Source of the DNA: Janthinobacterium sp. PC23-8
GTDB lineage: Bacteria; Pseudomonadota; Gammaproteobacteria; Burkholderiales; Burkholderiaceae_D
Direction of reading: 5' to 3'
NCBI RefSeq assembly: GCF_002250505.1
Contig: NZ_NJGY01000002.1
Location: 364,839-428,838, forward strand
DNA: 64,000 nucleotides
Below the pieces are notes generated by a model. It worked only from the letters and a program-made list of their open reading frames with translations, did no database searches and was not told where the DNA came from. Of this stretch, positions 729 through 9,876 are shown one piece after another; position 1 is the stretch's first letter; each line of letters begins with the position of its first letter. Both the position numbers and the translations under genes were made by a program.

Positions 729-1502
729 ATGAGTTCGATGAATGAAGAGCGCGTCTTAAGCGTGCACCACTGGACGGATACCCTGTTCTCCTTTACCACC
801 ACGCGCGATCCTTCGTTGCGTTTCTCGAATGGTCATTTCACGATGATCGGCCTGCGCGTGGACGGCAAGCCGCTGCTGCGCGCCTACAGCATCGCCAGCG
901 CCAATTACGAGGAACACCTGGAGTTTTTCAGCATCAAGGTGCCGGGCGGCCCGCTGACCTCGCGCCTGCAGCACCTGCAAGTGGGCGACACCGTGATCGT
1001 CGGCCGCAAGCCGACCGGTACGCTGGTCTCCGACTACCTGCTGCCAGGCAAGCGCCTGTACATGCTGTCGACCGGCACCGGCCTGGCGCCGTTCCTGTCC
1101 ATCGTGCGCGATCCGGACATCTACGAGCGCTTCGACCAGTTGATCCTCGTGCACGGCGTGCGCCACGTCGATGAACTGGCCTACCACGACCTGCTGGTCG
1201 AGCACCTGCCGAAGGACGAGTTCCTGGGCGAGATGGTGACCGACAAGCTGCGCTACTACCCGACCGTCACCCGCGAAGAATACCGCAACATGGGCCGCAT
1301 CACGTCCCTGATCGAAAGCGGCAAGCTGTTCGAAGACCTGGGCGTGCCCGCGCTGGACCCGGCCGTCGACCGCGTAATGATCTGCGGCAGCTCCGAGATG
1401 CTGCGCGACCTGAAGGACATGCTGGAAGAGCGCGGCTTCAAGGAAGGCAATACCTCCACGCCGGGCGACTTTGTTGTCGAGCGCGCGTTCGCCGAGAAGT
1501 AA
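729..1502 (+). CDS. fpr: Ferredoxin--NADP(+) reductase
   Basis: A 257-residue FAD/NADP(H) oxidoreductase that moves electrons between NADPH and ferredoxin or flavodoxin in the cytoplasm. The FAD-binding RAYS motif is at residues 51-54 and the NADP-binding STGTGLAPFLS segment at about 114-124; the CGSSEM segment near the C terminus and the ending FVVERAFAEK are characteristic of proteobacterial subclass Fpr. The length fits the family. I chose ATG 729 because family proteins start close to here; an upstream in-frame start at 687 adds 14 residues without family character, and ATG 738 is a second choice. It appears monocistronic, with a hairpin just after the stop. Confidence 0.93.
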   Translation: MSSMNEERVLSVHHWTDTLFSFTTTRDPSLRFSNGHFTMIGLRVDGKPLLRAYSIASANYEEHLEFFSIKVPGGPLTSRLQHLQVGDTVIVGRKPTGTLVSDYLLPGKRLYMLSTGTGLAPFLSIVRDPDIYERFDQLILVHGVRHVDELAYHDLLVEHLPKDEFLGEMVTDKLRYYPTVTREEYRNMGRITSLIESGKLFEDLGVPALDPAVDRVMICGSSEMLRDLKDMLEERGFKEGNTSTPGDFVVERAFAEK

Positions 1503-1516
1503 TCTTTCTCACGCTA

Positions 1517-1560
1517 CCAGGGGCCTGGCCTTGCCGCATGCGGTGACGCCGGGCCTCTGG
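1517..1560 (+). terminator. Probable terminator hairpin after fpr
   Basis: Two 13-base arms (1517-1529 and 1548-1560) are complementary with two mismatches, giving a strong GC-rich stem 15 bases after the fpr stop. There is only a weak T stretch afterwards (cgttta), so termination efficiency is uncertain. Confidence 0.5.
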
Positions 1561-1631
1561 CGTTTATGGCACTGTATCCAGGCGTGCGCGCCCAGGGCAA
1601 GATTGGTTCTTTGGGAGATCGTTGTTCGGAT

Positions 1632-1658
1632 GTAAGCGCTCCATAAACCACAGCCTTG
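1632..1658 (+). repeat. IS66 left inverted repeat
   Basis: Left end of the insertion sequence. It matches the complement of 4635-4661 at 24 of 27 positions by eye. The outermost bases gtaagcg are typical of IS66-family ends. Confidence 0.9.
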
Positions 1659-1712
1659 TGACGTGATCCCGATTTGCGCATGCTTGCCGTTTCAATTTGA
1701 ACGGGAGCAAGT

Positions 1713-2036
1713 ATGGAAGGCGACACCGAATTCTGGACCTCACATATCGAGGCCTGCCGCCGTGAAGGCATGGCGGCGAGCGTATATGCACGGCAGCATG
1801 GCCTGACGCTGGCGTCGCTGTACTACTGGCGGCGCAAGTTGACGCGGGTCGCAGCAATCGGCGCCGATGGCGCGGCGAACCAATTTGTCGCCCTGCGCGT
1901 GGTTGATACGGCAGTTGGCGCCGCAACCGGCACGTGCACCCTGGTGCTGCGTTCCGGTCTGCGCCTGGAGCTGGCCGCGCTGCCGTCGCCAGCCTGGCTG
2001 CTGGCCCTCGACCAAGCCCACGCGGGAGTGCGCTGA
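1713..2036 (+). CDS. tnpA: IS66 family accessory protein TnpA
   Basis: A 107-residue protein, the first of the three standard IS66 genes. The N-terminal half has a helix-turn-helix character (WTSHIEACRREGMAASVYARQHGL, then SLYYWRRKL), as expected for the TnpA/Orf1 accessory protein that is required for transposition together with TnpB and TnpC. The remainder is variable and low in motif content. The stop codon overlaps the tnpB start (TGATG at 2034-2038), so the two are probably translationally coupled. ATG 1713 is preceded by a purine-rich gggagc stretch. Confidence 0.88.
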   Translation: MEGDTEFWTSHIEACRREGMAASVYARQHGLTLASLYYWRRKLTRVAAIGADGAANQFVALRVVDTAVGAATGTCTLVLRSGLRLELAALPSPAWLLALDQAHAGVR

Positions 2037-2392
2037 TGCACCCGGGCTGCCGCATCGACCAGGTGTTTTTATGCCGCGACCCGGTCGACTTCCGCAAGTC
2101 CATCGGTGGTCTGTCGGTGCTGGTCGAGCAGGCGCTGGGACTTGATCCGTTCGGCAGCGCGCTGTACGTGTTCATCAACCGCGACCGCAACAAGATCAAG
2201 GTGTTGTACTGGCACCGTAACGGCTTCTGTCTGTGGCTCAAGCGGCTCGAAGCGGAGAAATTCGCGTGGCCGCGCGACGCCGACGGCGCCACGCAAGGCG
2301 TCACGCTGCAGCAGTTCGAGTGGCTGCTGGAAGGCTTCGATGTCTGGCAGAAGCCACCCCATAAAACCCTGCATTTCAGTTCTGTTTCATAG
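2036..2392 (+). CDS. tnpB: IS66 family accessory protein TnpB
   Basis: A 118-residue protein with the family signature VDFRKSIGGL near residue 20 and the YVFINRDRNKIKVLYWHRNGFCLWLKRLE-type core of IS66 Orf2 (shown only in part: NRDRNKIKVLYW and GFCLWLKRLE). The start is the ATG overlapping the tnpA stop; a longer open frame beginning at 1934 is not needed. It is essential for IS66 transposition by family knowledge, though its biochemical role is unclear. Seven bases separate it from the TTG alternative start of tnpC. Confidence 0.92.
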   Translation: MHPGCRIDQVFLCRDPVDFRKSIGGLSVLVEQALGLDPFGSALYVFINRDRNKIKVLYWHRNGFCLWLKRLEAEKFAWPRDADGATQGVTLQQFEWLLEGFDVWQKPPHKTLHFSSVS

Positions 2393-2413
2393 GAGAATTT
2401 GGTAAACTACGGC

Positions 2414-4060
2414 ATGTCTGCCACCACCGCCAAACCGTCCAACCTGCCGCCGCGCTACAGCCTGCCAGAACTGGTGCTGCCGGCCGTGTTGCCGACCGAT
2501 GCGGCAGCGCTGACGGCGTTGCTGCACTCGGTCATCGCCGCGCACCACGACGTCAAGACGCAGGCGATGAACCACATGCAGCACATGCTGGAACAGTTCG
2601 TCCTGGCGCGCCACCGCATGTTCGGCGCCAGCTCGGAACAGTCGTCAGCCCAAGGCCGCTTGTTCGACGAGGCCGAGGCGTTGGCCGCTGGCAGTGATGC
2701 AACGCAGGATGTAGCACCGCTGCCGCCGGATACCAAGCATGATGCCAAATCGAACAGCAAACCGGGGCGTGGCAAGCGCAGCCCGTTGCCGGCCGAGTTA
2801 AAACGCGTCGATATCGTGCACGATGTACCAGCCGCCGAACGTACTTGCCCGTGCGGCACGCCGATGGTGGAAATCGGCGAGGACGTCAGCGAGCAACTCG
2901 ACCTGGTGCCAATGCAGGTGCGCGTGCTGCGCCACATCCGCAAGCGCTACGGCTGCCCCGGCAGTGCCCACGCGCCGGTGACGGCGGCGTTGCCGCCCCA
3001 ACCCCTGCCCAAGAGCAACGCCAGCGCCGATTTGCTGGCCATGCTGCTGGTGGTCAAGTTCATCGATGGCCTGCCACTGGCGCGCTTTGAACATATATTG
3101 GCTCGCCACGGCGTGATGGTGCCGCGCCAGACGCTGGCGCGCTGGGTCATCGGCGCGGCCGGCGTGCTGCAGCCGTTGCTCAACCTGATGCGCGACGCCT
3201 TGCTCGACGGCCCGTTCCTGCACGTCGACGAAACGGTGGTGCAGGTGCTCAAGGAAGCGGGCAAGGCGCCGACCTCGAACAGCTATATGTGGGTGCAGAC
3301 GGGCGGGCCGCCGGGGCGGCCGGTGGTGGTGTTCGACTACGATGCGAGCCGCAGCGGGCAGGTGCCGCTGGGCCTGCTGCACGACTACCGGGGTTACTTG
3401 ATGACCGACGGCTACAGCGGCTATAACGAGTTGATGCGTACCGATGGCATCGAGCAGCTCATTTGCTGGGCGCACGTGCGTCGCCGGTTCGTCGAGGCCG
3501 TCAAGGTGCAGCCCAAGGGCAAGCGCGGCCTTGCGGACGAGGCCGTTGCCATGATAGGCAAGCTGTACGGCGTCGAGCGCGACCACCAGGACGCCGATGA
3601 CGCCACGCGCCTGCTGGCACGGCAAGCCCGCAGTGTGCCGGCGCTGGCGGCGCTGCGGACCTGGCTCGACCAGACGCTGCCGGGTGTGACGCCGAAGAGC
3701 GCGCTCGGCACGGCGCTGTCGTACCTGCGCGATTACTGGCCGCGCCTGACACGCTACACGGAGCGCGGGGACCTGCCGATCGACAACAACCGCGCCGAAA
3801 ACGCGATCCGCCCGTTCGTCGTCGGCCGCAAGGCCTGGCTGTTCAGCGACACGGTGGCCGGCGCCAACGCCAGCGCGGTCATCTACTCGGTGCTGGAGAC
3901 GGCCAAGGCGAACGGGGTGGAACCTTACGCCTGGTTGCGGCGCGTGCTGCGCGAGCTGCCGGCGGTGAAAAACGTCGAAGACGTTGAGGCGCTGCTGCCG
4001 TGGAATGTGAGCGCACTCGACCACGGCCAGAGCGTGACACCGATGGGCGTGCTGCAATGA
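2414..4060 (+). CDS. tnpC: IS66 family transposase TnpC
   Basis: A 548-residue DDE transposase. Order of parts: N-terminal coiled-coil/helical region, a Cys-rich zinc-binding segment (TCPCG, about residues 143-147, and the later RYGCPG), the central DDE domain and the IS66 C-terminal domain. The probable catalytic acids are D272 (HVDETV), D332 (MTDGYSGY) and E462 (NNRAENAIRPF). All are present and the frame is uninterrupted, so the enzyme may be active. ATG 2414 is chosen; a TTG at 2399, only four bases after an AGGAG, is an alternative that adds five residues. Its stop overlaps the start of the next gene (ATGA at 4057-4060). Confidence 0.95.
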   Translation: MSATTAKPSNLPPRYSLPELVLPAVLPTDAAALTALLHSVIAAHHDVKTQAMNHMQHMLEQFVLARHRMFGASSEQSSAQGRLFDEAEALAAGSDATQDVAPLPPDTKHDAKSNSKPGRGKRSPLPAELKRVDIVHDVPAAERTCPCGTPMVEIGEDVSEQLDLVPMQVRVLRHIRKRYGCPGSAHAPVTAALPPQPLPKSNASADLLAMLLVVKFIDGLPLARFEHILARHGVMVPRQTLARWVIGAAGVLQPLLNLMRDALLDGPFLHVDETVVQVLKEAGKAPTSNSYMWVQTGGPPGRPVVVFDYDASRSGQVPLGLLHDYRGYLMTDGYSGYNELMRTDGIEQLICWAHVRRRFVEAVKVQPKGKRGLADEAVAMIGKLYGVERDHQDADDATRLLARQARSVPALAALRTWLDQTLPGVTPKSALGTALSYLRDYWPRLTRYTERGDLPIDNNRAENAIRPFVVGRKAWLFSDTVAGANASAVIYSVLETAKANGVEPYAWLRRVLRELPAVKNVEDVEALLPWNVSALDHGQSVTPMGVLQ

Positions 4061-6066: not shown

Positions 6067-6903
6067 TCAATCTGCACCGCATGTGATACCGGCGGCGCTC
6101 GCCAGCGGCAGCCACAGCAGGGCGTCGGCCAGCACCTGGGCGACCGGCAAGGCGCACTCTCTGGCCGCATGCAGCGCGCAGGCTTGCAAGCCATGTGCTT
6201 CATGCTCGGCCGCCTGCAGCAAGTGAAATTGCCACGGCAGCAATACGTGCATGTTCAGCCGGTACTGTAATCTGGCAATCGCCAGATAATCCGCGCCCGG
6301 CGCGGGCGGCGGCGGCATGGCTTGCTCCGATGCGGCCTGTGCTTGACGCCAGAAAGCCTGCACCGGAAACGACAGGGCCAGCAAGCGCGTGCAGGGCGCC
6401 AGCCGTATCGCTTCTTCGCCACCGGTCAGCCAGCCAAGGTCCGGCGTCCCGGGCGGGCGGCGCTTTTCCAGCCCCGGCGCCCTGCCCGCCTCGCTGCGCG
6501 CCCTTTCCAGCCGGGCCAGTTCGACGGGGAAACGCAGCTGCCCGCCGCTGCCTGGCGGCTGGCTCGCTGCCAGGAAATCGGCAAAACCGCCGCCCAGGTC
6601 GTACAAGGTGGGCGAGCGCGACGGGTGGCGCCAGACATAGGCGCGGGCGAAAAAGTCGAACAGTTCATCGCCCATGGTTTTGCGCAACACGGGAAAGTCG
6701 GCCTGCAGGCATTCGAGCAGGCGCTGCACATAGCCGTCGGCGTAGATATGCAAACGCCCTTCATTCTTGAGCACCTCGCCCTGGCTCAGGCCATGGTGCT
6801 GCTGCGCCAGTTCCATGCCGCGCCGCGCGCCGCCGGGCGCCGTCATGGCGGTCAGAAACCAGGCCTGCAGCCGCGCCAGCGGTAGATGCTCGGGTTCATG
6901 CAT
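6067..6903 (-). CDS. MNIO partner protein, DUF2063 (HvfC/BufC-type)
   Basis: A 278-residue protein. Its N-terminal region (about residues 8-105: [15 protein letters not shown], then [24 protein letters not shown] cut here as [11 protein letters not shown] and [14 protein letters not shown], then [20 protein letters not shown]) is the DUF2063 domain found in HvfC/BufC. These partners help the neighbouring DUF692 oxidase recognise its peptide substrate, by family knowledge. ATG 6903 gives an 8-base overlap with the end of the upstream DUF692 gene and the expected N terminus; a longer open frame to 6975 is a shadow. It is the last gene of the three-gene operon. Confidence 0.88.
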
Positions 6904-7822
6904 GGATATCTCCCAGGTGAAAGCTGAGCGGACTGGACACGGCGCCGCGCGCCACCGCCGGCACATCGTCGCCAAATTCGCCCCGCTCGGCCGCGCGCGC
7001 CTTGGCCAGTTCAGCCAGCAACTGCGGATACGGCGGAATATTGGCGTCCCATTCCAGCAGGGCCGACACGCCGCCCGTCAGCCTCTGCGCCAGCGCGTAC
7101 AGCCGCCAGACGGCCGCCGGCACCGGTGCGTCGTGGGTATCGATCAGCACCTCGCCGCAATCGGTGGGGCCGGCCAGGTGCAGTTGCACGATATGACGGT
7201 GCGGCAACTGGCGGATATAGTGAACCGCATCGTAACCATGGTTGTGCGCGCTGACATGCACGTTATTGACGTCCAGCAGCAGGCCGCAGCCCGTTTCCGT
7301 CGCCAGTCGGCCCAGGAATTCCCATTCCGGCATGCTGGACGATGCGAACTCGACGTAGGTGCTGGGGTTTTCCAGAACCAGCGGGCGCCCCAGGAAATCC
7401 TGCACCTGGCGCACCCGCGCGGCCACATGGCGCAAGCTCGCTTCATCGAGCGGCAGTGGCAGCAGGTCGTGGCTGTTGACGCAGGCGACGCCGGTCCAGC
7501 ACAGATGGTCCGATACCCAGGCGGGTTGCAACTCGTCAGCCAGTTGGCGCAGCTTGCGCAAATACACCAGGTCGAGCGGATCGCTGCTGCCGATCGACAG
7601 CGACACGCCATGCATCACGATCGGCACTTGCGCGGCCACCGTTTCCAGCACATGGCGGCCGTAGCCATGGTTGTCGATAAAGTTCTCGCTGATGATCTCG
7701 AACCAGTCCACCTGCGGCCCGTGTTCGAGGATGTGCTGGTAGTGTTGCGGGCGCAGCCCGACGCCCAGGCCCAGATGCGGCAGGCCCAGGCGGGGAGCCG
7801 CCATGGTGGTGGCGGCCGTCAT
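6896..7822 (-). CDS. Multinuclear non-heme iron oxidase (MNIO), DUF692 / UPF0276, BufB-like
   Basis: A 308-residue TIM-barrel enzyme of the DUF692 family, which modifies Cys or other residues of ribosomally made peptides using two or three iron ions. Probable metal ligands are all visible: H71 (MHGVSLS), D105 and H106 (SDHLCW), E151 (ENPSTYVEF), D184 and N187 ([13 protein letters not shown]), H215 (QLHLAG), H230 (DTHDAP) and E257 (EWDANIP). The SDHLCW and DTHDAPV segments fit the BufB/HvfB-type group. Its ATG overlaps the stop of the upstream ferritin-like gene by one base (TGATG), and it overlaps the DUF2063 gene by 8 bases, so the three are co-translated. The likely substrate is the Cys-rich tail of the upstream gene product. 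Confidence 0.92.
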
Positions 7823-9876
7823 CAGGTCGACGGTGGCAGGGCCATGCGCAGATCGGTCGGCGCCGGCTTCGGCCCAGGTGTCGCGCCGCGCGCGGCCATC
7901 ACCTTGCCATACGCTTCCCAGGCCTTGTCATACACGCTGTCGCCGAGCGCAAAGCTGAGCGTTTCGCCCAGCGATTTCGCCTTGTGGTCGGGAGCGGGTC
8001 CGAAGTTGTACAGGGTCATGGTGCCTGGCGTGGCGTTGGGGAACAGCTGGGAGGCCGAAATCGGCACGGCGCAGCCGCCGAAGCTGGCGCATTTGTTGTC
8101 GCTCGGTGCGCTGTAGACCTCGTCTGCCGGTACCGGTGGCGTCGGCTTGGGCGCGCCGCACAGATTGCCGGCCACCTTGGTGACCTTGGCCGAGTGCCCG
8201 CAAGACGATGCGGCAGCGCCGCAGCCAGCAGCGGAGCCGCCGCACTGGCCGCCGCCCGTATCGAGTTGGGCAAAGCCGCAGCCGCCCTGGGCATGGCAGC
8301 CATTGGAGCCGCGGCAGGTATGGTAGACGGCCAGCGCCGCGCACGTCGCTTCGGCCTCGCCTTCCAGGTGCATGCCCTGGCAGGCGTGATACAGCACGTC
8401 TTTGTCGCGCACCGGCACGCCTGTCGCGAGGTCAGGCGCCTGGCCCAGCACGGCCCAGCACAGCGCCATGCGGTCGCCAGCGCCGACCATCGACGGATAC
8501 GGAAACGCCGTGCTCTGGTCTTGCCAGTAGGTATCGAGCACCGAGGTGATGCCGTAGATGGCGCCATTGGCGACCGTGCTCAGCATGTTCAAGGTGTCGT
8601 GATTGTCCTTCAGGCGGTTCAGGGCGCCCGCCACGTCGTCGGGGCCGGGGATATTCTGCGGTGCCGTGGCCGGATTGTAGCGCTCGTTCGTCAGCAGGGC
8701 TGCGCTCCAGCTATTGCCTTGCGCATGCCATTGGGCCCAGGTCATGACGGGCAGCATGGCCCTGACCTGCTCGAAACGCTCGTAGTGGTCATATTTGGCG
8801 CTGTCATGGCGGGCCGCCGCGTCGCGCGACTCGGCATCCTTGCCGTCGTTGGTGTAGGACGGATAATCGACTTTCAGCGCGGCGTCGTCCTCGCGGTAGT
8901 CGGGCTGCACGGCCATCAGCATGGCTGCAGCGCTGCGGCGGTAGCGCTTGATGGCGCTGTCACTGCCTTCGCCCTGGTCGGTAATGGCGGCCATCATGTC
9001 GATCGCCTTGTTGAACGAGGTGGTGAGGCCGCCGTCCTGGTCCTGCGGGCCGAAACAGGTGTCGAAGCGGGGGAATTCGGCCTTTTCATGGCCCTTGACT
9101 GTGGTATTGAACATGTCCTGCTGCACCGAATCGTTGACGAACAGCTTTTGCCACAGCGTTTCGCCATCGGTGTATTCGATGCTGATATAGGCCGCATAGC
9201 ATTCGTACATATAGCCGATGGTGCCGAACAGCGGCAGGTCCTGCACATGCTTTTCCGGCGTCCAGCCCGCCAGTGGCACTTGCGGGAAATACTTGCTGTG
9301 GTCGATCTTGTCGAAGGCGCGCAATTGCTCCCTGGCCTGCTCTTCCGGCTGCTCGATGGCGCAGAACAGCTCGCACTGGTTGGCGTTCAGTTCTTCCAGG
9401 TTGACGCGCACCTGGCTGTAGCCCGAGGTATCTTTCAGGTCGACGATATGCGGAATCATCGACAGGTCCGGCCCGTAACAGGTCCAGCCATGCTGCAGGT
9501 TCTGCAGTTCGGTACCTGTGAAGCACGGCGCCGCGCCGATGGCGGTGGCGATATTCGAGGCCATCTGCAGATGCAGCATTTCCTGGATAAACACGCTGAA
9601 AATGATATTGAAGGCCTTCTGCTCTTTCGATTCCGGCTTTGCGGTGGTGCTCATGCCCGGCCATTGCCGGCCTTCGTAATAGCGCACGCCCTTGGAATTG
9701 ATCTGGTGCGTGCCATAAATCGAATACATGGTGGCCATGTACAGCGGAATGGTAAACAGCTCCACGCTGACTGCCGCCTGGGCAATCGCGCGCACGGCCG
9801 CCGTATCGGTGGCCAGCATGTCGAGCGGACGGTTGGTGATGGGGGCTTGGGTACTGCCTGATGCGGGCATTTTCAT
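7822..9876 (-). CDS. Ferritin-like (VioB-type, PF12902-like) protein with Cys-rich tail; probable MNIO substrate
   Basis: A 684-residue protein. The N-terminal domain resembles the ferritin-like domain of VioB-type iminophenyl-pyruvate dimer synthases: [20 protein letters not shown] with E39, and [12 protein letters not shown] with E99xxH102 as probable metal ligands; HYERF is at 364-368. The C-terminal part has 11 Cys between residues 499 and 602 (bases 8071-8382). Within it, [18 protein letters not shown] (519-536) resembles the CxGxNxCxxxGGC repeats of MNIO-modified proteins. It is followed by [17 protein letters not shown] and NKCASFGGC. There is no signal peptide. A GGAGAG lies just before ATG 9876. 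It is the first gene of an operon with the DUF692 and DUF2063 genes, overlapping the former by one base. That the tail is the oxidase substrate is inference. Confidence 0.85.

Follow-up and report, generated by a model that had tools for sequence, protein, structure and literature searches.

The window analyzed here, a 64,000-nucleotide stretch of the genome of Janthinobacterium sp. PC23-8 (assembly GCF_002250505.1, contig NZ_NJGY01000002.1, positions 364,839 to 428,838), carries on its minus strand a cassette of three overlapping genes that run in one direction (window positions 6067-9876). The genes encode, in order, a 684-residue ferritin-like protein with a Cys-rich C-terminal tail (FER), a DUF692 oxidase of the multinuclear nonheme iron-dependent oxidase (MNIO) family, and a DUF2063 partner. 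The favored reading, with a probability of about 0.78, is that FER serves the MNIO as a protein-sized, bufferin-like substrate, the Cys of its tail being oxidized to metal ligands. In this group of soil and water bacteria, FER would thus stand in for the small copper-binding peptide on which such an iron enzyme usually acts. On comparative evidence, the tail is well supported as an MNIO substrate. The initial annotation of this region had described the three genes, the 11 Cys of FER within residues 499-602, the metal ligands of the oxidase, and the DUF2063 partner, all of which were found as described. Its proposal that the fused tail is the MNIO substrate passed comparative tests, since tail motifs and MNIO occur together in the same 3 of 17 genomes and nowhere else among them, and is partly supported overall.

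Conservation and co-occurrence of the cassette

A scan of one genome per species (84,980 species) with FER peptide patterns returned 60 loci, whose carriers include Janthinobacterium, Massilia, Undibacterium, Chromobacterium, Caulobacter, Sphingomonas, Vibrio neptunius, a Ralstonia sp., Dyella, and one cyanobacterial locus. The three genes stand in identical order and on the same strand in 59 of the 60 loci, which were found by FER patterns alone. Among the 59, a locus from a Symploca metagenome-assembled genome (MAG; L075) has the tail part of FER only and another (L052) begins inside FER; at the 60th (L045), the contig ends. The first two genes overlap or lie no more than 30 bases apart in 48 of the 59 loci, with gene starts as chosen in the analysis. 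In a survey of neighbors covering 28 fetched loci and the window, no real gene beyond these three was present in more than 4 of the 29 sets, and most of the larger clusters were shadow frames of the cassette genes. Genes found in three or four sets were of common kinds when judged by eye (for example, ABC transporter and sensor proteins) or were shared among sphingomonads.

The co-occurrence proposed as a check in the initial annotation is also seen within the window's own family. Among 145 genomes, the eight with a full-length FER (at least 69% identity) are exactly the eight in which an MNIO reaches 74% identity, and the two genes are adjacent by coordinates. For the next two MNIOs of the family (55-56% identity; G990 and G988), the preceding gene encodes a divergent PF12902 protein that has a Cys tail (L143 and L144). 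The next six by score (49-56% identity) each follow a small BufA2-like open reading frame with six Cys, with no FER; these frames, judged by motif and not by profile score, end 66-109 bases before the matched part of the MNIO. A further genome (G874, locus L150) has a PF12902-like match with no MNIO within the 8 kb fetched, and G1000 has a weak FER match.

The PF12902 family offers a wider comparison, as it occurs in 17 of 398 Pseudomonadota genomes. The surroundings of the 17 genes were fetched up to about 8 kb per side (for L105, L114, L116, and L118, at least one side was limited to 1-3 kb). An MNIO lies beside the PF12902 gene in three of them (the window's genome, G701, and G542), and the tail motifs CxxxNxC and [GS]C[AG]xP occur in these three only. 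The other 14 have neither motif, and the stretches fetched for them, some of which are short, contain no MNIO. A split of 3 of 3 versus 0 of 14 would arise once in 680 times if the genomes were independent, but two of the three are close homologues. Three of the 17 (G515, G630, and G495) give partial matches of 60-64 positions and are perhaps not true PF12902 members. The initial annotation had counted a tail-less homologue beside an intact MNIO as evidence against a tail substrate, and none was found in the sets compared.

Some additional matches complete the survey. A weak partial MNIO match at L112 (E 0.006) was rejected, as the frame reads by eye as an FAD-type oxidoreductase. The MNIO-less PF12902 protein of L111 ends in a Cys-rich stretch of a different type. 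A search for relatives of L113 matched 2 of 78 genomes, namely L113's own and, partially, G510. Two plasmid records matched, both Pseudoalteromonas replicons of more than 1 Mb, and the cassette is present in the first, which was the one fetched. L043 and L115 are apparently one genome, as are L026 and L152, and other genomes in the numbered (G) sets may repeat named ones.

The Cys-rich tail of FER

Nine Cys are invariant in 58 of 58 FER proteins (L045, L052, and L075 were left out beforehand). Two of these, C133 and C226, lie in the folded domain, and seven lie in the tail (499, 512, 521, 527, 533, 596, and 602), so that the alignment suggested in the initial annotation bears out the conservation of the tail Cys. 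Structure prediction leaves residues 490-613 largely disordered and places a small domain at about 618-680 (block predicted local distance difference test score [pLDDT] 68-80 over residues 621-680). The conserved tail blocks are CxGSNxC...GGCGF, PxDNxC...[11 protein letters not shown]..P, and PPST, the last of which stands at the C-terminal end and is invariant in the alignment of FER proteins (A1); the tail also holds an invariant GGCAVPIS block. No Pfam or NCBIfam model matches the C-terminal end of FER. In 62 tails, C-[GA]-x-P units number 161, compared with 10.5 in residue shuffles; this count was made after the unit had been spotted and on tails many of which are related. The tails of the type II proteins (L113 and L144) retain CxxxNxC and SCATPI and lack the PPST end of the type I proteins. 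Many sphingomonad FER tails (L053-L073, for example, L057) are expanded by Pro/Thr-rich CG[TA]P repeats, reaching 22 Cys per protein.

The tail Cys could alternatively form disulfides or a structural zinc or iron-sulfur site, with the linkage to MNIO caused otherwise. The large number of Cys, the CxxxxxC spacing of some of them, the invariance of C133 and C226 in the folded domain, and the Cys-rich end of MNIO-less L111, although of another kind, are in keeping with this explanation. However, the tail is mostly disordered by prediction, the C[GA]xP unit is present in 4-8 copies in 11 sphingomonad loci and in 6 copies in Symploca, and tail motifs and MNIO are either both present or both absent in the 17 PF12902 genomes, all of which make a structural role very improbable.

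Kinship with BufA2 systems

The 26 cassette enzymes placed in a tree of 45 MNIOs, those of the type II loci (L113 and L144) and of Symploca among them, all fall into one clade (support 100/99). This clade and the BufA2-associated MNIOs make up a group, also with support of 100/99, that is apart from nine other MNIOs, several of which, judged by sequence, stand after precursors of the BufA1 type. The first tree used 23 chosen cassette loci and the window, and L143 and L144 were added in the second, from which OWN_T4222 and L138 were dropped as long branches. Sixteen of the 19 loci from the BufA2 search (L120-L138) were tried for MNIO (L129, L134, and L135 were left out), and L123, L125, and L126 had no MNIO within their short flanks. 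Because the cassette MNIOs group with the BufA2-associated enzymes, FER fills the position of the BufA2 precursor.

The tail itself points in the same direction. Aligned with BufA2 by hhalign, the type II tail (two sequences) matched over 26 columns (probability 91, score 33.6, compared with 18.8 for the best of 200 column shuffles). The type I tail matched over 13 columns (probability 85, score 29.6, with 14 BufA2 rows), whereas the best of 300 column shuffles reached 19.8. The CxGxNxCKGxG motif of BufA2 (NF050166) is thereby found in the FER tail, by a short alignment. The tail of L144 shows weak similarity to the NCBIfam BufA2 model (15.5 bits; cut-off 60), and the NF050166 profile matches neither the window FER, nor its tail, nor L113. 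The motif singled out in the initial annotation ([13 protein letters not shown]) matches the BufA2 profile over a short stretch. The part that Symploca keeps is a different one, GCAVPI with the C-terminal end and not CRGSN.

The MNIO and its partner

The second gene encodes a protein that matches PF05114 with 355.5 bits and the NCBIfam model MNIO_BufB (NF050167) with 355.6 bits, above the cut-off of 310 for BufB enzymes. PMC10880893 reports nine iron ligands for TglH, and alignment and motifs identify a counterpart of each in the MNIO (H71, H106, E151, D184, N187, H215, D228, H230, and E257). The partner matches DUF2063 (PF09836) with 73.4 bits (cut-off 27.2) and the HvfC equivalog model with 53 bits, below the cut-off of 142. 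Its AlphaFold2 model (pLDDT 88.9) retrieves TglI (8hci), 8hi7, and NGO1945 (3dee) by Foldseek, all with E below 0.001; TglI and NGO1945 are both known from MNIO systems. The DUF2063 profile together with a two-domain fold like that of NGO1945 makes the partner a PME-type 1 (DUF2063 plus RRE) protein.

A short version in Symploca

The initial annotation had viewed a separate small precursor in a relative as evidence against a fused substrate. One such gene was found, in the Symploca MAG (L075), where the gene before the MNIO encodes 164 residues, but it looks like FER minus the ferritin part with the end of the tail kept, and for this reason it supports the idea of a tail substrate. Its first 28-30 residues match the N-terminal end of a full-length FER from another cyanobacterial genome (L119; 67% identity) and are followed directly by the tail end, so that about 560 residues are missing in comparison with L119, including the ferritin-like domain and the first Cys block. 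The six copies of GCAVPI, encoded by a 24-base repeat (98% matches), hold the only Cys of the protein. The reading frames of the MNIO and the partner are intact, and no PF12902 match is present in the 8.2-Mb MAG. The L075 protein is possibly a natural minimal substrate; if it is functional, GCAVPI and the two ends would be sufficient.

L075 and L119 are the only two carriers found with profile A1 among 386 genomes of the cyanobacterial phylum. In the tree, their MNIOs lie among those of Pseudomonadota, with Undibacterium as neighbor, a placement that suggests transfer between phyla.

The ferritin-like domain

FER matches PF12902 (Ferritin-like) with 81.5 bits (cut-off 22.3; residues 33-309) and is the sole PF12902 match in the window's genome. 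By family resemblance, E39, E99, H102, E175, and E303, together with H364 outside the Pfam match, are putative di-metal ligands. Five of the six are kept in 19 of 19 aligned PF12902 proteins and E303 is kept in 18 of 19; all six are invariant in alignment A2 (36 rows) and are retained in type I, type II, and L143 proteins. The model of the domain has pLDDT values mostly above 90, residues 18-50 form ferritin helix 1, and Foldseek matches the model to 3hl1 with a template modeling score of 0.72-0.74 on the target. Residues 350-477 are also folded in the model and have conserved positions. The domain thus looks functional. C133 and C226, which are inside the domain and invariant in the 58 type I proteins, are both absent from aligned tail-less and type II PF12902 proteins, and L143 has C226 only.

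The ferritin-like domain could also be a working second enzyme that acts on the same tail by turns with the MNIO, or the tail, once modified, could serve the ferritin-like site as a built-in metal relay or cofactor; FER would then be an enzyme-substrate fusion. Both ideas are compatible with a tail substrate and go beyond it. Retention of the six putative di-metal residues in type I, type II, and L143 proteins argues in their favor, as do residues 350-477, whose fold and conservation exceed what a passive carrier needs, and the weak resemblance of L144 to VioB, an enzyme (27 bits; cut-off 1250). Symploca, however, has an MNIO without a ferritin-like domain, and thus at least one lineage may do without the domain. 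Such a second activity is possible but doubtful.

FER could instead be an accessory, as an iron supplier or a tailoring oxidase, with the substrate of the MNIO encoded elsewhere in the genome, for example, BufA1 on contig C7. The genome does contain such a precursor: at L080 (contig C7, positions 1062-3031), a BufA1-type (DUF2282) gene is followed by a single gene encoding a 587-residue fusion of an MNIO and an HvfC/DUF2063-like part. This precursor therefore has an adjoining MNIO-DUF2063 gene of its own. Moreover, an accessory needs neither an invariant Cys tail nor the position of a precursor, and the Symploca version is little more than a tail. An accessory role for FER is hence unlikely, clearly more so than a second activity.

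Comparison with known systems

The FER cassette most resembles the BufA2/BufB/BufC clusters, with which it shares a BufB-type MNIO above the curated cut-off, a DUF2063 partner, the gene order, a neighboring MNIO clade, and the C-x-G-x-N-x-C-x-x-x-G motif. It differs in that the FER precursor is a ferritin-like protein of 565-799 residues with no obvious Sec signal, which adds the GGCAVPIS block and, in type I, the LPPST domain; the window FER also lacks a BufA2 profile match.

The initial annotation had considered a fusion of this kind unusual, but bufferin fusions are in print. PMC12452194 describes Buf1-cytochrome c-FGE-sulfatase, MerC-Buf1, MerC-Buf2, and EGKC-EF-hand proteins, speaks of "a few instances" of the Buf1 and Buf2 fusions, and suggests that MNIOs modify proteins. 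As in FER, a Cys-rich MNIO-type segment is joined to a larger metal-related domain; unlike them, FER has a PF12902 domain and its own MNIO clade, found across several Pseudomonadota families and two cyanobacterial genomes. The TIGR04222 proteins of the same report are likewise large, lack a signal, have C-terminal Cys, and are encoded beside an MNIO, but they are membrane proteins whose partners, where reported, are mostly PME-type 2, while the partner of FER is a bona fide DUF2063 protein; the TIGR04222 profile does not match FER. In the window's genome, the gene before a third MNIO (L081, contig C6, positions 1558-3319) encodes a TIGR04222 protein (62.7 bits; cut-off 43) whose C-terminal end is rich in Gly and Cys, an arrangement that fits the published association.

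CC_0557 of Caulobacter vibrioides (PDB 3hl1, PF12902) shares the fold and the E...ExxH...DQGEG motifs with FER, but its solved chain of 317 residues is too short to include a FER tail. The VioB-like label of the initial annotation was discarded: neither TIGR04492 (VioB) nor any other NCBIfam family matches the window FER at E≤0.1, and a weak TIGR04492 match is seen in L144 only. Borosins of the OphMA type also carry a precursor peptide fused to an enzyme domain, and their enzyme class differs from that of the FER cassette. In the literature, a ferritin-like/bufferin-like fusion was not found by searches of open-license PMC articles, and the word ferritin was not found in the main text of PMC12452194, the supplements of which may list FER proteins. 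Three further articles were uninformative, as the mention in a Caulobacter copper transcriptome (PMC8224329) is the title of a reference and the matches in Chromobacterium (PMC12114271) and Janthinobacterium (PMC9860564) articles are to vioB of the violacein operon.

Proposed mechanism

An ancestor may have joined a BufA2-like Cys segment to the C terminus of a PF12902 ferritin-like protein, and the fusion would then have replaced the small precursor at its place in the operon. The disordered tail (about residues 490-613) would be bound by the DUF2063 partner and the MNIO, probably by way of the conserved C-terminal domain, the N-terminal end, or both. Tail Cys would be oxidized to 5-thiooxazole-type ligands as in bufferins, most likely in the C-[G/A]-x-P units (for example, GGCAVPIS) and the CxGxNxC motif. 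Bufferin precursors are recognized by thiooxazole-modified Cys, a 305 nm band, and copper binding. The chemistry for FER is proposed by analogy, as a 5-thiooxazole product and copper binding are described for related MNIO-DUF2063 systems in PMC13097082. The modified tail may bind Cu(I) or another soft metal beside the intact di-metal ferritin-like site, probably in the cytosol.

Several points weigh against this interpretation. The match between the type I tail and BufA2 is short, and an earlier run with eight BufA2 rows was borderline (24.8, with 24.5 for the best of 200 shuffles). Neither the window FER nor its tail matches any NCBIfam bufferin model, and no obvious Sec signal peptide was found in FER by N-terminal hydropathy (median 1.02 in 59 FER proteins and 2.21 in 12 BufA-type open reading frames, with overlapping ranges). 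Since both the signal, by hydropathy, and the curated profile failed, FER is called bufferin-like and not a bufferin. Bona fide DUF2063 partners are reported with Sec-exported, signal-peptide-bearing precursors (PMC12452194), a correlation to which a signal-less FER runs counter. The LPPST end cannot be the recognition element everywhere because the type II proteins lack it, and not all conserved Cys need be MNIO targets because C133 and C226 sit in a folded domain. The C[GA]xP unit was spotted, in related sequences, before it was counted. Finally, the Symploca gene is known from one contig of one MAG, and thus decay or an assembly error is possible.

Organization of the cassette in the window

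The stop codon of FER and the start codon of the MNIO gene have one base in common (TGATG at 7824-7820), and the MNIO and DUF2063 genes overlap by eight bases. The DUF2063 gene likely starts at the ATG at 6903 rather than at the TTG at 6975. About 2 kb downstream of the cassette (window 1713-4060) lie genes resembling an IS66-type transposase set.

Table 1. Coordinates of the FER cassette and its parts in the window
Feature	Position	Strand	Basis
FER, 684-residue ferritin-like protein with Cys-rich C-terminal tail, proposed MNIO substrate	7822..9876	-	PF12902, 81.5 bits; next two genes follow in 59/60 loci
Ferritin-like domain, residues 33-309	8950..9780	-	Pfam; conserved putative di-metal residues; structure model and Foldseek
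First Cys block, residues 499-545, with BufA2-like motif [11 protein letters not shown] (521-531)	8242..8382	-	Invariant Cys; hhalign against BufA2; pLDDT mostly low
Second Cys block [18 protein letters not shown], residues 596-613	8038..8091	-	C596 and C602 in 58/58; alignment A1; repeat array in Symploca
Small C-terminal beta-beta-alpha domain ending in LPPST, residues 618-684, candidate recognition element	7825..8025	-	Block pLDDT; PPST invariant in A1
MNIO (DUF692) oxidase, BufB type, 308 residues	6896..7822	-	PF05114 and NF050167 above cut-off; iron ligands; clade
DUF2063 partner (PME-type 1), 278 residues counted from ATG	6067..6903	-	PF09836; AlphaFold2 model; Foldseek

Implications

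The cassette links bufferin-type chemistry to a ferritin-like protein. Whether MNIOs act on full proteins is a question raised in PMC12452194, and the conserved cassette, its own MNIO clade, and the natural 164-residue version make this question directly testable. A more speculative proposal is that FER is a di-metal ferritin-like oxidase with its own ribosomally made, MNIO-installed tail, in which the Cys of C-[G/A]-x-P and CxGxNxC would form a soft-metal site that works with the di-metal center as a relay, redox partner, or target. If this is true, the product of the MNIO would be a cofactor inside a cytosolic enzyme and not an exported metallophore.

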